This document shows positions 24,171 to 52,212 of a stretch of DNA of 64,000 bases, one piece after another. Source of the DNA: Nitrospirota bacterium (GTDB taxonomy: Bacteria; Nitrospirota; Nitrospiria; Nitrospirales; Nitrospiraceae). The stretch is from assembly GCA_016219645.1 (NCBI GenBank), contig JACRLR010000018.1, forward strand, positions 248,001-312,000, read 5' to 3'. Positions within the stretch are counted from its first letter, which is position 1. The number at the start of each line of letters is the position of its first letter. The position numbers and the translations under genes are program-made. The notes beneath the pieces were generated by a model that had not been told where the DNA came from, did no database searches, and saw only the letters and a program-made list of their open reading frames with translations.

Positions 24171-24310
24171 TTAACACACCACTCTTTTGTGCTGCAACCT
24201 AAGCGTTCGAGTAAGTAATTGCGTCAAAGCAGGAAGGAGGCTTGGCTAGGCTGGTTGTGCGAGGTGAGGGCTCAGAAAGGCTAGAACGACAGAACCCCTT
24301 TGCCCCCCAC

Positions 24311-24339
24311 TTGACAGTCCTTACTTCGATATGTAACAT
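24311..24339 (+). promoter_or_regulatory. Promoter of the LexA-like/mutagenesis cassette
   Basis: TTGACA (24311-24316), a 17-base spacer, then TAACAT (24334-24339). The predicted transcription start is near 24346, within a few bases of the ATG at 24348, so the mRNA would be leaderless or almost so. The adjacent palindrome overlaps the -10 element. Confidence 0.75.
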
Positions 24340-24349
24340 TTTGTGACAT
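24331..24349 (+). promoter_or_regulatory. Predicted LexA-like operator
   Basis: The palindrome ATGTAACA-TTT-TGTGACAT has one mismatch between arms. It covers the -10 box, the start point and the first bases of the start codon, the expected position for autorepression by the encoded HTH-S24 repressor. Confidence 0.65.
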
Positions 24350-24893
24350 GACGGCTAAACAGTTCAGGCAGGCGCGGGTTCGGTTGGGATACACGCAGGC
24401 GAAGTTGGCGGAGGTGCTGCAGCTGAGCCGCATGACGATCAGCCGCTATGAGGCCGGCACGTGGGAGGTGCCTTTGTCGGTCGAGATGGCTTTGGACCAG
24501 TTAGGATCGGCGCAGATTCCGATGCTCGGGATGGTGGCGGCAGGGGCGCCGATCGAACCGATCACGCAAGCTGAATTGGTGGCGGTGCTGCCGCCGCTGT
24601 TGCGAGGAGGAGAGACCTTCGCGCTGCGGGTGAAAGGCGAGTCGATGAAAGACGACGGCATTTTCCCCGGCGATCTGGTCGTGGTCCGGAAGCAGGGTAC
24701 TGCGCGGAACGGGCAGACGGTGGTGGCGCTGGTGAATAACGAAGCGACGATCAAGAAGTATTACCGCAAGGACGGCCGAATCGAACTGCATCCGGCGAAT
24801 ACAGCGATGAAGCCGATCGTCGTGTCGTCAGGGGACGAGTTTTCCATTCAGGGGATTGTTGCGGGTGTGATCCGCCACTTCAACGAATCGTGA
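24348..24893 (+). CDS. LexA-like self-cleaving transcriptional repressor (HTH-XRE + peptidase S24)
   Basis: The 181-residue protein has an N-terminal XRE-type helix-turn-helix (FRQARVRLGYTQAKLAEVLQ, about residues 6-25, then MTISRYEAGTWEVP). The C-terminal domain is LexA/UmuD-like: Ala65-Gly66 cleavage site in MVAAGAP, nucleophile Ser99 in VKGESMKDDG, and Lys136 in ATIKKYYRK. Such repressors are inactivated through RecA-stimulated self-cleavage after DNA damage. It probably represses its own operon through the palindrome at 24331-24349. It differs from classical LexA, whose DNA-binding domain is winged-helix. It is followed by the RecA/ImuA-like gene with a GTGA/TGA overlap. Confidence 0.85.
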   Translation: MTAKQFRQARVRLGYTQAKLAEVLQLSRMTISRYEAGTWEVPLSVEMALDQLGSAQIPMLGMVAAGAPIEPITQAELVAVLPPLLRGGETFALRVKGESMKDDGIFPGDLVVVRKQGTARNGQTVVALVNNEATIKKYYRKDGRIELHPANTAMKPIVVSSGDEFSIQGIVAGVIRHFNES

Positions 24894-24901
24894 GGTGCTC
24901 T

Positions 24902-25612
24902 ATGGCTCTGGTCCAGCAACAAACGATGGAGTTTCCGTTTCGCACAGAGAATGGCGGCGTGGTCATCGATGCGCCTCGCCGCCTGTTGGCTGCGTTGCGG
25001 CGGAGTGCTGTGTCGACCGATCAGCCGAAGGGGTTGGTGCTCTTGTCCGGACCGCCATCTGTCTATCGACTGGGCCTCTGTGCGGCAGTCGATCGCGCGT
25101 TGGCCGGTGAACCGGTCTTGTATCTGGCCGGCGCCAATGTCTTTGATCCGTTCTTAGTGGGGCGGCTGGCAAGGGCCAGTCGGGTGGCACCGGCTCATGT
25201 GCTGCAGCAGATTCACGTCTCACGGGCCTTCACCTGTCATCAGATGGTCCGGTTGGTCACGGATTGTCTCCCGTCGGCGTTGCGTAGCTATGATGCGCGA
25301 TTCGTCATTCTCGCCGGTCCGCTCGACACGTTGTACGACCAGTCGGTGCCGGAAACGGAAGCGATGCGCCTCTTTCGTGCCATGACGGAGGCTCTTCATG
25401 ATATGGCCGGCCATGGCGTACAAGTGCTGTGTGTGACTCCGCTCGCGCTGCCTGAATCCGGCGGGCGCAGCCGATTTATGGAGACACTTCGTGCGCAGGC
25501 ACGCCGGGCGATCGACCTGCGAGAGGCCGAGGATGGGCTGTGGCTTCAGGAAGAGGGAGGGCTTGAGCCCAGACGCTGGAGGATTCCGCGTCCGCTCTGG
25601 AATCGGTTATAG
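24902..25612 (+). CDS. RecA/ImuA-like protein without an intact P-loop
   Basis: The ATG at 24902 (GAGGTG upstream) gives 236 residues; an in-frame GTG at 24890 overlaps the previous stop and is an alternative. The order of strands and helices resembles ImuA/RecA-fold proteins: LVLLSGPPSVYRLGLCAAVDRAL at the Walker A position, PVLYLAGANVFDP, and FVILAGPLDTLYD at the Walker B position. The Walker A site lacks the GK[ST] residues, so ATP hydrolysis is unlikely. ImuA-type proteins accompany error-prone polymerases under LexA control. Here the partner is a family-B polymerase. The fold call is by pattern only. Confidence 0.6.
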   Translation: MALVQQQTMEFPFRTENGGVVIDAPRRLLAALRRSAVSTDQPKGLVLLSGPPSVYRLGLCAAVDRALAGEPVLYLAGANVFDPFLVGRLARASRVAPAHVLQQIHVSRAFTCHQMVRLVTDCLPSALRSYDARFVILAGPLDTLYDQSVPETEAMRLFRAMTEALHDMAGHGVQVLCVTPLALPESGGRSRFMETLRAQARRAIDLREAEDGLWLQEEGGLEPRRWRIPRPLWNRL

Positions 25613-25614
25613 GC

Positions 25615-25905
25615 ATGGGCCGCACGCTTGTCACGCTCACACAATTGGTCCAGCAGGAAATCGACTCGTGGAGCCGCTACCGGCGTGCGTTGCGGCGCGA
25701 GGATCAGCAGGCGCTCGATGTATTGTTCGCCGCAGCCCGCCACCATGCGTCGGCCGGCGCCTATCTCGCGCGTGAAACTCCGTTCGAAGTGATGCTGCTG
25801 TCGATGTTGATTGAACAGCAGAAACAGGTCGGCATATTGCAACAGAAAGTGATGATTCTTGAAACCCGCATGCTCCACGACTCGACTCACGGGGTGGCTT
25901 CTTGA
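25615..25905 (+). CDS. Small helical protein of the LexA-ImuA-PolB cassette
   Basis: The 96-residue, mostly helical protein (LVQQEIDSWSRYRRALRRED, then MLLSMLIEQQKQVGILQQKV, which looks coiled-coil). It starts two bases after the ImuA-like stop and overlaps the polymerase gene by about 47 bases. Small proteins in this position accompany archaeal PolB2-type polymerase operons as I recall, so it may be an accessory factor of the polymerase. No named family is recognised. Confidence 0.55.
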   Translation: MGRTLVTLTQLVQQEIDSWSRYRRALRREDQQALDVLFAAARHHASAGAYLARETPFEVMLLSMLIEQQKQVGILQQKVMILETRMLHDSTHGVAS

Positions 25906-26320
25906 TGTCTATCCGGCGCAAGAGGGTATGGTCGTCTGGCTCCTTTGCGAGGATGGTCGCCGCATCCGGGCCGTCGATCCCTTTGTGCCGACCTGCTACC
26001 TGTCGGCTCCGCCGTCTATCCGAGAACAGGTGCTTCGGCTACTCCGCCATGCCTCCTGTCGTATCAGCACCAGAGAGGTGGAACGATACCAACTCGGTGC
26101 GCTTCGCCCGATTCCGGTGCTGGAGGTCTCGGTTCATGCTCCCGCGCAGTTTTCGTCCATCACACGACGTCTGATCCGCGTCTGTCCGGACGCGCAGTTC
26201 TTTCACGTCGATGTGTCACTGCCGCAGCGCTATTTTTACGATCGGCAGCTCTTCCCTCTCGCCCATTGTGAGGCAGACTTCACAGCCGAAGGCCTGATTC
26301 AATCGATTCAGGCGCTGTAG
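25859..26320 (+). pseudogene. Family-B DNA polymerase, N-terminal fragment (ends at in-frame TAG)
   Basis: The frame begins near TTG 25859 and encodes LTGWLLDVYPAQEGMVVWLL ..., typical of the start of this polymerase group. It stops at TAG 26318-26320 after IQSIQAL. The same frame resumes directly with SPWDTDYGLPPLTIMELSPD and runs into the polymerase domain, so the TAG interrupts one continuous gene. The fragment alone (about 153 residues) has no catalytic part. Either the gene is inactivated, or the TAG is read through, or the base is an assembly error. Confidence 0.75.
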
Positions 26321-26362
26321 TCCCCCTGGGACACGGATTATGGCCTCCCGCCTCTTACGATT

Positions 26363-28027
26363 ATGGAACTGTCCCCGGACAGTCCGTCACCCAACCCGAA
26401 TCATGGTGGAGGTGGCCCGCTCGTGGTGCGAATAGACGGGAAGGAGCGTCTGTTGGAAGGCGATGATGCCGATGTAATCCAGCGCCTCGACCAGCTGCTC
26501 GCGCGAGAGGACCCCGACATTCTCTTGACGGACTGGGGCGATTCCTATTTGCTGCCTCGTCTCATGACCATGGCGAACCGGTTATGTCTGCCGCTTGCAC
26601 TCAATGGCGATCCCCGCCGATCCATCGGTGCCAGGAAGCCCCATTCGTATTTTTCATATGGCCGTATTCTGTCCCATGCCGGATCCTGCACCCTGTCGGG
26701 ACGATTGCACCTTGACCGGCACAATTCCTTTGCGTTGGCGGAGACGGGCCTGGCAGGCCTTATCGAGCAGGCCCGTGTCGCGAAGGTCGATTTGCAGCAG
26801 ATGGCTCGCACGACGACCGGGACGGGGATCACGTCGATGCAGCTCGAGACGGCTTGTCGAGACGGCCTGTTGATTCCCTATCGCAAGCAGGAGCCGGAAA
26901 CCTTCAAATCCGCGCTCGAGTTGCTGCGCACCGACCAGGGTGGGCTGGTATTTGCCCCGATCGTCGGCTATCACGAACAGGTCGGCGAACTGGATTTCTC
27001 TTCGATGTATCCCTCCATCATGACGCGCTTCAACATCTCGCCTGAGACGGTCAATTGCCGGTGCTGTCGCCATGATCCCACTGCACGGGTGCCGGAGATC
27101 GGCCACCACACCTGCCGACATCGTCAGGGCTTGGTGCCCCGCACACTGGCCCCATTGCTCGACAAACGTGCGCGATACAAACGGCTCATGACCGCTGCGA
27201 CACAGCCGGCGGAAAGGGCCGTGCTCGACCAACGACAAACGGCGCTCAAGTGGCTGCTCGTCGTCTCCTTCGGCTATTTGGGATATAAGAACGCCCGGTT
27301 CGGCCGGATCGAAGCGCACGAGGCGGTTACGGCTTACAGCCGCGAGCTGCTGCTGCAGGCCAAGGAGGTTGCCGAGCAGCAGGGCTATCGCCTGCTGCAC
27401 GCGATTGTGGACTCGCTCTGGCTCGTCAAGCCCGGCGCTGTCAGGACGGATTACGACAGACTTGCGCAGGCGATCACCGAGCGAACGGGGCTCTCGATCG
27501 GTGTGGAAGGGGTCTATCATTGGATTGGGTTTCTTCCGTCACGGGTCAATCCACTCATGCCGGTGCCGAATCAGTTCGTGGGCCTGTTTGACCATGGCGC
27601 GATGAAGATCCGCGGCATCGAGATCCGTCGCAGCGATGCGCCGCCGCTTGTTAGGCGAGCGCAAGCAGAGATGCTGCGCTGTCTGAGCCAGGCACGGACG
27701 TTGGTTGAGTTACGTGAACGGATTCCGCAGGCATTGGAGACCATCCGTGCCTACCGGCGCTATCTTCAGGATGGTCTTGCCACGGTTGAAGAATTGGCCA
27801 TCACGAAATCGCTCGCAAAAAAACCGCAGACCTATCGTCATCAGACTTTGTCGATGATTGCCGCGCAGGAGCTGCTGGCTCGGGGTGTTCCACGCAAGCG
27901 GGTGACACGATTCATTACATCATCACGGACGCGAAGGCGGCTTATCCTGCAGACCGTGTACGGGCGGTGGCCGGACTCGATGGGACCTGGAGCTGCGATG
28001 TCTCGGTCTATGACAACCTGCTTCTGA
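26363..28027 (+). pseudogene. Family-B DNA polymerase (PolB2-like), exonuclease-like and polymerase domains
   Basis: The second part of the same gene, in the same frame as 25859-26320. Polymerase motif A is ELDFSSMYPSIM (nt about 26986-27021) and motif B is LKWLLVVSFGYLGYKNARFG. Motif C reads HAIVDSLWL: the first Asp of the usual DTD is missing, the second is kept. The exonuclease region is degenerate (IMELSPDSP; DPDILLTDWGDSYLL). After RVTRF (nt about 27910) this frame becomes meaningless. The frame two bases on reads HYIITDAKAAYPADRV ... YDNLLLKAALVLLTPLGV and ends at TGA 28099-28101, inside a repeat element. A one-base deletion in a T run at about 27912 explains this. Related polymerases act in damage tolerance. 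Confidence 0.75.
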
Positions 28028-28089
28028 AGGCGGCCCTCGTGCTATTGACGCCGTTGGGCGTGACAGCGACCTCACTGAACGAATCTACT

Positions 28090-28306
28090 GCAGGATGCTG
28101 AAAAAGTCGCTCTTCTCACCCGCCCAACCCGGACGCGCCGAGACGCGTCTTTCCCCATGCGCGTTCTCCCATCGAAAGCATCCTCAACGTAGCCCACTCG
28201 GAGAATAAGCTGTCTTGGCAGCTTGGGGTGGGCGGGTGAGAAATGCTACGCCTCCGGTGCTTTCATCGGCTGCGGCCTTGCTGGACGAACTTTTTGAGCA
28301 TCCTGC
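28090..28306. repeat. Dispersed modular intergenic repeat, copy B (217 bp)
   Basis: The ends are GCAGGATGCTGAAAAAG and CTTTTTGAGCATCCTGC, a near-perfect inverted pair. Modules inside are TCTCACCCGCCCAACCC, GGTGGGCGGGTGAGAA and TGCGGCCTTGCTGGACG. It supplies the stop codon (TGA 28099) of the reframed polymerase gene. The following 230 bases up to 28536 hold no convincing gene. Confidence 0.8.
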
Positions 28307-28536
28307 CCAGTATTCTCCCATTGCCCCAGACAGGCTGATGTTCATCGTGCACAATAATATTGCGGAGCCCGGAGAGGGCGACGTTCAAACCTGTCCATAC
28401 CGCCGGCCCTTGCCTGCGGATAGAGGGTGCACAGAGCCTGTTTCTGCGGGGTTATCCATGGCACCCATCTTGCTTAATGCCTTGGGTTCCAGGCGTGCTG
28501 TAGGGGGCATCACATCAACATGAAAAGGGGGATCAC

Positions 28537-29403
28537 ATGGCACCAGTGTTGGAGCTCGATCGGCAGACAGACTCGTTTGTGCGGCAACTCGAAGAACAAC
28601 GGAAACTTGAAAAGACTCTGCTGGTTGAACGGGTTCGTGGAACGAAAGAGGGGCTAGAGTCGGTCTTCAGCGACATCAAGAGCCGTGTAGCGGTGCTGGA
28701 AAAGCTGAACGGGTTGGCGAGTGCCAGCTGCATTGCGCCGGTCGGCTGGAGCAAGCTGATCTTTACCGGAGCGGATAGTGTCTCGGCGCCGAACACCATC
28801 GGATTCGGTGATCGGGATGAAACATTGTGCAAGCTCGATCAGATCAAATATCTTGAGGACACGCACTATCTCCGGCTTGCCGCAAATCCCTACTACGTGG
28901 AGCATAGGCTCCCGAGTAAATCACTTCAGGCGCGCGTCGGGGCCAATCCGTCACTATGGGATACGCTTGGGTATGTCCATGCTGCTTACACGACCCTATT
29001 GCAGATTCCCGCCTCATTGGAGCCGACGACTGTGTCCATCATGTCACGGGTGAACACACTGTTTAACTGGGTTGAAGCTAATGCGGTCGGAGACCAGTGG
29101 TATGCCCATGTGTCGGCCGCCGTGCGACTGTGGGTCACCTATGATGGCGAGTTTCGTCAGGCGCCGTCCGCTCAGCTCGTGAACCTTCTTGCCTCGCCAA
29201 GGCAATTGCGGACCCATCAGGACATTGCGTCGCATGCGCCGAGCGCAGCTCTCACGATGCAAGTCTCGGTCTCAGCCGGCAGTGGCACGACGATCAGCGT
29301 CTACGAATCCATTGAACTCGTCGCCACCACACCGAACGGCCACGCCTATCTTGACGGCATCTTTTCGTGGGAACCGTTGGCGGTGCAGTTGCGCGAAGGG
29401 TAG
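28537..29403 (+). CDS. Uncharacterised protein, 288 residues
   Basis: I recognise no family. The first 65 residues look coiled-coil (FVRQLEEQRKLEKTLLVERV ... SDIKSRVAVLEKLN). The middle contains Trp/Tyr-rich helices (LWDTLGYVHAAYTTLLQIP). The C-terminus looks beta-rich (LTMQVSVSAGSGTTISVYES). There is no signal peptide. AGGGGG lies upstream of the ATG. The TAG stop shares its G with the first base of repeat copy C. Confidence 0.6.
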   Translation: MAPVLELDRQTDSFVRQLEEQRKLEKTLLVERVRGTKEGLESVFSDIKSRVAVLEKLNGLASASCIAPVGWSKLIFTGADSVSAPNTIGFGDRDETLCKLDQIKYLEDTHYLRLAANPYYVEHRLPSKSLQARVGANPSLWDTLGYVHAAYTTLLQIPASLEPTTVSIMSRVNTLFNWVEANAVGDQWYAHVSAAVRLWVTYDGEFRQAPSAQLVNLLASPRQLRTHQDIASHAPSAALTMQVSVSAGSGTTISVYESIELVATTPNGHAYLDGIFSWEPLAVQLREG

Positions 29404-29748
29404 CAGGACGCTGAAAAAGAGGGATGGGGTAGCTGGGACGATCCCCTTGCTCGCGCAACGCGTGGCCTCAGAAAGATGCAAGGGAACAGGCAGACCGTTC
29501 TTCTTGCTCGCAGAGTCCCCACGATAAAGCGGTGGTCGCTCGATGCGCGCAGTAAAGAACAATCTGCCTGCTCCCTCTGGGAAAGTTGGAGACCCAGAAG
29601 GCCCTCGCCCGGGCAAATGGCACGTCTCGGCGTGCCAGTGAGTGGGCGGGTGAGAATGTTGCGCGCAGTTGGGATCATCCCACCCACCACCCCATACTAA
29701 AGAGACAGCTCGCTACGGCCTTGCTGAGAGGCCCTTTTGAACATCCTT
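29403..29748. repeat. Dispersed modular intergenic repeat, copy C (about 346 bp)
   Basis: It starts GCAGGACGCTGAAAAAG and ends near GCCCTTTTGAACATCC. It contains TGCTCGCGCAACGCGTGGCC, GATGCGCGCAGTAAAG, GAAGGCCCTCGCC and AGTGGGCGGGTGAGAA, all shared with copies A, F and G. Nothing else is seen in this 370-base gap. Confidence 0.75.
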
Positions 29749-36108: not shown

Positions 36109-37191
36109 ATGGCTGATACGGTAGCCGAACAGATCGCGGCTCTTGAGGACGAGGATTGGGCGATCCGCGAAGAGGCTGCCACGATGCTTGGCACGTTTCG
36201 GGATCCGAGGGCTGTGGCGCCGTTGGTCTCCATGCTTCGCGATCGCGATCGCGCGGTTCGTGATGCAGCGATCGGGGCTCTCTTGGCCATGGGAGAGCCG
36301 GCTGTGTTGCCGCTGGGGGATTGTCTGTCTGATCCGGTGCTCACCGTTCAGGAGCTGGCCTCATCGGTATTGGCGACTATTGCCGATGCCAGAGTCCTCA
36401 CCCCGCTGATGGCGGCGCTCTCGAGTCCCGATTGGATTGTGCGGATGCACGCGGCCAAGGCGTTGGGTCGGATTCAAGATCCTGAAGCTGTTGGCGTATT
36501 GGTTCCGCGCCTCCAAGACTCGGTGAAGGCTGTGCGTGAGGAGGCGTCGACGGCCCTCGCGGCCATCGGAGAAGCAGCGCTCTCGTCGTTGCTTGCTGCG
36601 CTGACCCACGGCGAATGGTTGGTGCGGTTGCATGCGGTTGAGGCCTTGGGGAAGACAAGATCCTCCCAGGCTGTGGTCCCGCTGTTGTCGGTACTCTTTA
36701 ACGATCAGGACAGGGCGGTCCGTGAGGATGCAGTCCGCGCGCTCGGTCAGATCGGAGATGCGCGCGCCGTGGAATTCCTCGTGATGGTGATGAAAGAACC
36801 GGGGCTGCAGCCCCTGGCCATTGAGGCGCTGGGCCGGATCGGTGATCGCCGCGCAGTGCCGGTTCTGATCGATGTGCTTGAAGGCGTGGATCGACCGAAG
36901 GCCTCGCAGCCGATCGACAGCTGCGGTGATCATTGGAATGAGGACATCATCGTATTAGGCGTCGCTGCCAAGGCCTTAGGGGTGATCCGAGACGAGGCGG
37001 CCATCCCATCACTCATCAAGGCGCTTCGCTATACGATGACACGAACAGATGCCGCCGACGCCTTGACTCGATTCGGGAATCGCGTGATTGCGCCGTTGCT
37101 GGCGCTGTTGGCACAGGAATCGGATGACAACATCCGCTACCATGTCAAAGAGACGTTGGCGAAGGTGGGCTGGCGGGCAGGGCGCATCTAG
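36109..37191 (+). CDS. HEAT-repeat protein 2
   Basis: The start ATG 36109 (MADTVAEQIAALEDEDWAIR) gives 360 residues. About ten HEAT repeats run through the protein (LRDRDRAVRDAAIGALLAMG, DAVRALGQIGDARAVEFLVM and similar). Its opening, an acidic DEDWAIREEA helix, resembles the repeats of the neighbouring HEAT proteins, consistent with duplication. The TAG stop shares its G with the start of repeat copy E. Confidence 0.85.
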   Translation: MADTVAEQIAALEDEDWAIREEAATMLGTFRDPRAVAPLVSMLRDRDRAVRDAAIGALLAMGEPAVLPLGDCLSDPVLTVQELASSVLATIADARVLTPLMAALSSPDWIVRMHAAKALGRIQDPEAVGVLVPRLQDSVKAVREEASTALAAIGEAALSSLLAALTHGEWLVRLHAVEALGKTRSSQAVVPLLSVLFNDQDRAVREDAVRALGQIGDARAVEFLVMVMKEPGLQPLAIEALGRIGDRRAVPVLIDVLEGVDRPKASQPIDSCGDHWNEDIIVLGVAAKALGVIRDEAAIPSLIKALRYTMTRTDAADALTRFGNRVIAPLLALLAQESDDNIRYHVKETLAKVGWRAGRI

Positions 37192-37340
37192 CAGGATGCT
37201 GAAAAAGCCGCCAGCGGTATTGGGGAAGGTTGAGGCTAAGGTTAAGGTTGAAGTGAGGGACCTCTGAATCTTGCTCAACCTTGACCTCAGCCTTATTCAG
37301 ACGCTGCGGCCTTGCTGAACGGCCTTTTTGAGCATCCTGT
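37191..37340. repeat. Dispersed modular intergenic repeat, copy E, carrying the CAACCTTGACC inverted repeat
   Basis: It starts GCAGGATGCTGAAAAAGCCG and ends CTTTTTGAGCATCCTG. Its interior is the low-complexity inverted pair AAGGTTGAGGCTAAGG (from 37226) with CAACCTTGACCTCAGCCTT (37276-37294), then GCGGCCTTGCTGAACGGC. It thus combines the two dispersed repeat families seen in the window. Confidence 0.8.
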
Positions 37341-51948: not shown

Positions 51949-52212
51949 CAGGGTGCTCAAAAAGGCCACGGTTCTCACCCGCCCAAACCCAGCGCGCCAA
52001 GACGCGCTGTTCCGCGGGCAAGGCCGCAGCAAGCGATTGGGGACAGCCACCTTTCCGGTTGGTGGCCCTCGAGCCTCTGAGTGGAGCGAGAACGAAGCTT
52101 GGGGAAAGGCGCGGCCCTGGGTGAAGAGGCTGTCTTGGCAGACACAGGGTGGGTGGGTGAGATGATCGCCGGGATTGGGCGGGTGAGAAGGACGACTTTT
52201 TCAGCATCCTGC
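51949..52212. repeat. Dispersed modular intergenic repeat, copy G, between ylxP and rbfA
   Basis: The left end is GGGTGCTCAAAAAGGCC and the right end is CTTTTTCAGCATCCTGC. Modules are TTCTCACCCGCCCAAACCC, GCGCGCCAAGACGCGC, GAGGCTGTCTTGGCAGAC and TTGGGCGGGTGAGAAGG. It interrupts the otherwise compact translation-factor operon, so transcription must cross it or restart within. Confidence 0.8.

Follow-up and report, generated by a model that had tools for sequence, protein, structure and literature searches.

A probable PolB2 mutasome operon under a LexA-type switch of its own, with an interrupted polymerase gene, in a Nitrospira-like genome

We analyzed a 64,000-nucleotide stretch of DNA (the window) on contig 18 of a Nitrospira-like genome (3.65 Mb in 71 contigs, with 4.3% estimated contamination) and focused on four genes at positions 24311-28101. 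One promoter is followed by genes for a LexA-like repressor, iRadA, PPB2 and a PolB2-type DNA polymerase, all on the forward strand. We conclude that this four-gene set very probably represents the bacterial PolB2 mutasome operon, equipped here with its own LexA-type switch. A preliminary description, made from the DNA sequence, had called the genes co-oriented and overlapping; the co-orientation stands, but overlap is confined to PPB2 and polB2 (47 bp), with gaps of 8 bp between lexA and iRadA and 2 bp between iRadA and PPB2. The same description had proposed a bacterial counterpart of the archaeal PolB2 operons, which is borne out and already published: the bacterial operon iRadA-PPB2-PolB2 has been described with lexA enriched nearby [Timinskas et al. 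2025, PMC11791011]. The mutasome is therefore prior knowledge, as are its gene order in bacteria and its association with lexA. As far as the literature we found shows, what this analysis adds is a set of operators, the finding that LexA head and operator change in step, and the evidence for a private switch, together with the lexA remnant, the empty site and the interruption of the polymerase gene in this genome.

The second gene (24902-25612) encodes a protein of 236 amino acids. An AlphaFold2 model built from 31 relatives (pLDDT 83.8) matched DMC1, RadA and Rad51 in a Foldseek search (best DMC1/RadA match 3.5e-11), and the family profile matched RadA in the PDB at 6e-10. The protein lacks the GxxGxGKT (Walker A) motif as well as the N-terminal domain, and so the earlier prediction of a RecA-type fold without a P-loop is upheld. 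A simple regular expression for the beta-clamp motif, Q[LMVI]x[LF], found none in the iRadA or PolB2 of the window; the motif occurs in only some PolB2 mutasome members and is not a requirement for membership. The iRadA of a Chloroflexi locus (L109 4188-4697) ends at its C-terminus in QLALF, a textbook beta-clamp motif that is absent from the iRadA of the window. The third gene (25615-25905) encodes the arCOG07300-like protein PPB2 of 96 amino acids, which is small, as had been noted, and all-helical with a long C-terminal helix in an AlphaFold2 model (pLDDT 87.8). It begins with MGRT, which nearly all members of a 38-sequence alignment of relatives share; M1, G2 and T4 are invariant in this alignment. 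A Foldseek search of the PPB2 model against the PDB returned no meaningful match. The fourth gene was correctly described as a family-B DNA polymerase (PF00136, 1.6e-36). In its motif C, IVD takes the place of DxD; IVD is invariant in the aligned relatives and retained in the piece encoded by the window. The first Asp is replaced, as described for PolB2, and the motif of Sulfolobus PolB2 is IID [PMC11791011]. A domain search found no exonuclease domain in the N-terminal piece of polB2 or in the remainder, and a PF00136 search of the whole genome found no second family-B polymerase. We conclude that the products of 24902-25612, 25615-25905 and the polymerase gene match the published features of iRadA, PPB2 and PolB2.

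The first gene (24348-24893, 181 amino acids) had been described as encoding an HTH-S24 repressor, and domain matches agree (Peptidase_S24 at 4e-30, HTH_3 at 1e-8). The product scores 126 bits against TIGR00498, for which the NCBI cut-off for LexA is 111, and contains a VAAG cleavage site and the motifs GESM and ATIKK. The winged helix PF01726 was not found in this LexA, which has HTH_3 in its place and is thus non-canonical. The S24 domain retains the AG cleavage site and the Ser/Lys residues, and the repressor is predicted to dimerize and to cleave itself.

Upstream of lexA, a -35 box TTGACA (24311-24316) lies 17 bp before a -10 box TAACAT (24334-24339), both on the forward strand. The putative LexA operator ATGTAACATTTTGTGACAT (24331-24349, no strand assigned) extends over the -10 box and into the start codon of lexA. 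The palindrome had been placed on the -10 box of one promoter, and its position is as described, running over the -10 box into the ATG; taken alone it is weak. It pairs at 7 of 9 positions with a shuffle p-value of about 0.19, so that significance from the single sequence was rejected and the evidence for the operator is its conservation across species. At most one base of ATGTAACATTTTGTGACAT is changed in each aligned relative from the genus or family, and TTGACAG does not vary among the seven relatives that were aligned to the window, whose roughly 100 bp upstream of the promoter and operator do not align. Many further cassette loci also have a TTGACA box near lexA, and two of them (L084 and L090) carry the perfect 9/9 palindrome ATGTGACAATTTGTCACAT (p-value 0.003-0.007). 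If transcription starts about 7 bp beyond the -10 box, the lexA message would be nearly leaderless.

The four genes are kept together in related genomes, as had been anticipated. Relatives within the genus have the same order, with identities of 94-97% for lexA, 86-91% for iRadA, 88-92% for PPB2 and 83-91% for polB2, and the best matches to the cassette among named relatives are metagenome-assembled genomes labelled Nitrospira or Nitrospirae. A scan of 84,980 species yielded 49 loci. All 34 of those with a LexA match have the order lexA-iRadA-PPB2-polB2, and they span Nitrospirota, NC10 (L106), Aquificota (L113, L119) and Muiribacterium (L115); the loci without a LexA match are mostly truncated by contig ends. 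A Chloroflexi locus has iRadA and PPB2 with no LexA match in reach, and at the two Caldarchaeum loci the bacterial profiles for LexA, iRadA and PPB2 all gave no match. The search of 395 genomes of the phylum gave matches in 60, some of which probably represent family-B polymerases of other kinds. Two candidate sources of the cassette were rejected: the plasmid matches were haloarchaeal PolBs at about 31-36% identity, and the phage matches were two contigs filed as viral with a distant PolB2, neither of which is close. On one IMG/VR contig filed as viral (L213 4690-7307), we observed an MGRT-type PPB2 beside a PolB2 at 37% identity, with no match to iRadA or LexA.

Repressor head and palindrome vary together across these loci. 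The cassettes of the Nitrospiraceae combine an HTH_3 LexA with operators of the TGTNACA type. Eight cassette LexAs carry the winged helix PF01726 (L085, L096, L106, L108, L111, L113, L115 and L119), and several cassettes of other lineages have different palindromes near lexA, for example GGTGAACATTTGTTCACC or GGTGTACAAATGTACACC. Most genomes of the genus also encode a separate, genomic HTH_3 LexA with the operator TGTAACCATTGGTTACA at its start codon. In two genomes (L093 and L120), the mutasome genes stand behind a lexA of this genomic type, and in L093, where the gap was read, they are separated from it by the two small genes that accompany the genomic lexA. In a tree of HTH_3 LexAs, L093 and L120 fall inside the genomic group, and the main cassette group of Nitrospira stands apart (support 100/100). 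The sequences suggest that the same mutasome was repeatedly re-coupled to whichever LexA was available. The genome studied here has its separate HTH_3-S24 LexA on contig 16 (L035 1324-1869), where lexA is followed by a small coiled-coil-like open reading frame and a small cysteine-rich (CxxC) open reading frame, and a PF00717 search of this genome found no canonical LexA. LexA of the contig 16 type looks like the main, genus-wide LexA of Nitrospira.

We also considered a wider regulon for the LexA of the cassette, and rejected it. Within one mismatch, the operator occurs in this genome only at the cassette and at contig 19:23515-23533 (L038 1501-1519). The patterns searched (the operator, TGTNACN5GTNACA and GTAACCN3GGTTAC) were no more frequent than their reversed controls beyond the lexA promoters themselves, and neither the recA promoter nor the dinB locus of this genome has an operator site. 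Because recA and dinB lack the operator, the switch appears private to the cassette, and the LexA of the window most likely controls its own operon only. The contig 19 site retains a -35 box and the operator, followed by about 39 bases that align with the start of lexA; overall, 62 of 76 bases are identical to the cassette, there is an in-frame TAG, and no further cassette genes are present. From this alignment, we take the site to be a decayed remnant of another copy of the cassette lexA.

The polymerase gene of the window is split into three pieces. The 5' piece (25859-26320) starts with TTG within PPB2 and ends at an in-frame TAG (26318-26320), where all nine relatives with sequence available have GAG. 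The central piece (26321-28027) contains palm and fingers and loses its frame at 27893/27894 through a one-base deletion, as the nine relatives have one more base there. The 3' end (27894-28101), in the shifted frame, is 67-88% identical to the C-terminus of PolB2 from Nitrospira and relatives in the family. The gene set had been given an end at 28101; a stop is present there, but it belongs to the frame entered after the deletion, and polB2 is not one open reading frame. Both lesions are unique to this genome, and the preliminary description had not mentioned the interruption. We did not find an intact full-length PolB2 frame in the window, whereas the genes of the relatives are intact, with frames open over 656 to 775 amino acids, some of which end at contig edges. 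Given two truncating lesions, no full-length polymerase would be made, leaving the switch and two accessory subunits, and polymerase function has probably been lost in this genome.

We weighed whether the lesions are instead assembly or consensus errors, in which case the operon would be intact and functional in the organism. We consider this unlikely, though a real contender. One point in its favor, which also weighs against loss of the polymerase, is that purifying selection is still visible along the branch leading to the window. Private changes in polB2 number 10 nonsynonymous to 47 synonymous in the window, compared with 39 to 89 pooled for six relatives (Fisher p-value = 0.07, in the direction of stronger constraint in the window), and relaxed selection on polB2 was accordingly rejected. 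The lesions are therefore either very recent or errors, and an assembly in 71 contigs with some estimated contamination leaves room for the latter. However, two independent lesions fall in one gene and none in the other three, a crude frame survey of the other ~60 kb of the window found no obviously split genes, and loss of polB2 is not unusual, as three further genomes from this phylum (G160, G290 and G171) contain decayed or fragmentary copies. Because no obviously split genes were seen elsewhere in the window and decayed copies exist, we favor a real and recent loss. In another account, the break in polB2 is not accidental, and the locus functions as an iRadA-PPB2 module regulated by LexA, or with a truncated polymerase restarted at the ATG at 26363. 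Consistent with it, no lesion is present in lexA, iRadA or PPB2, which carry few private nonsynonymous changes (6 nonsynonymous to 22 synonymous in the window, against 35 to 68 pooled in the relatives), and this ATG, 43 bp past the TAG, opens a 554-amino-acid frame with palm and fingers. Yet the restarted piece would lack the N-terminal domain and a proper C-terminus, the arrangement was seen in no other genome examined, and decay accounts for two lesions more simply, which makes such repurposing improbable.

A different question is whether the operon as a whole is a mutagenesis cassette of the ImuA-ImuB-DnaE2 type in which the polymerase has been swapped. In the lexA-imuA-imuB-dnaE2 cassette, LexA regulates its own expression and is encoded together with an accessory protein of RecA fold and a polymerase that is error-prone. 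The preliminary description had drawn this parallel and called the second protein ImuA-like. The general plan does agree, since one operon encodes LexA, an accessory protein with a RecA fold, a further small protein and a polymerase, but the ImuA reading is not supported: the nearest relatives of the accessory protein are archaeal and eukaryotic RadA, Rad51 and DMC1, and its family is iRadA. The polymerase is of family B, the operon contains neither a Y-family ImuB nor DnaE2, the sole Y-family gene of the genome lies elsewhere, and PPB2 has no counterpart in the ImuA-ImuB-DnaE2 cassette. We regard such an origin as highly improbable and retain the PolB2 mutasome as the probable identity of the operon.

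The position of the cassette varies between genomes. Genome G018, where the search gave no PolB2, has an empty site: the flanks that enclose 24200-28509 in the window lie 165 bp apart there. At L074, the cassette stands between the same flanks as in the window, and at L076, L077, L079, L080 and L081 it stands among other genes on at least one side. We find it about an even bet that LexA control of the PolB2 mutasome arose several times, with different heads and matching operators (through a winged-helix LexA, a paralogous HTH_3 LexA, and the genomic HTH_3 LexA operon of L093 and L120), and that the cassette is a compact, mobile and self-contained SOS unit with private switches, copies of which come and go and leave remnants such as the broken polB2 and the contig 19 lexA. 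Directly at the 3' end of polB2, a small element (28090-28306, no strand assigned) is bounded by inverted copies of the repeat GCAGGATGCTGAAAAAGT about 217 bp apart, and the same junction is present in two related genomes (L025 and L026). Further copies lie at 29403-29420, 37191-37208 and 52195-52212, giving five matches in the window where none are expected. By sequence, the repeat looks like a miniature inverted-repeat transposable element (MITE) or a repetitive extragenic palindromic (REP)-type element.

We propose that in intact copies a LexA-like dimer on the operator over the -10 box would shut off its own operon. RecA filaments formed on damaged DNA would induce self-cleavage of LexA at the AG site, upon which iRadA, PPB2 and PolB2 would be made together. 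The three proteins may then form a translesion complex, with iRadA standing in for a recombinase subunit and PolB2 extending primers past lesions; for a PolB2 mutasome, a PPB2 trimer and a heteropentamer with PolB2 and iRadA would be expected. Among prokaryotes, PolB2 complexes constitute a counterpart of the Pol V mutasome built on a family-B polymerase. We know of no bacterial PolB2 complex that has been tested. With the conserved operator and the natural variants described here (three repressor types, one polymerase-less copy and the empty site of a sister genome), the control of bacterial PolB2 by damage and its role in mutagenesis can be tested directly. The results also point to a non-canonical LexA of the HTH_3 type as the genus-wide LexA of Nitrospira, a genus of nitrifiers for which the literature searched yielded no description of the SOS system.

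Among known systems, the closest is the bacterial PolB2 mutasome [PMC11791011], with which the operon shares its gene order, an MGRT-type PPB2, an iRadA without ATPase motifs, a motif C without the first Asp, and lexA as a neighbor. It differs in that polB2 is truncated and LexA is of the HTH_3 type, and the operator and promoter are defined here across lineages, which they are not in the main text of that study. The PolB2 family and its bacterial members have been known since 2008 [PMC2527604]. The operon of Sulfolobus Dpo2 (PolB2) comprises the same three subunits, but it is archaeal, lacks LexA and has an intact polymerase; Dpo2 is induced by damage, has no proofreading and extends mispaired ends [PMC8764526], and its operon is under control of the Orc1/Cdc6 type [PMC11791011]. 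Finally, the non-canonical LexA of Bacteroidetes joins S24 to a repressor-type HTH rather than a winged helix and occurs as duplicates with diverged operators [PMC8565304]. The genome studied here shares both features, but belongs to another phylum with other operators, and its cassette repressor is placed at a PolB2 operon, with no site found at recA or dinB.

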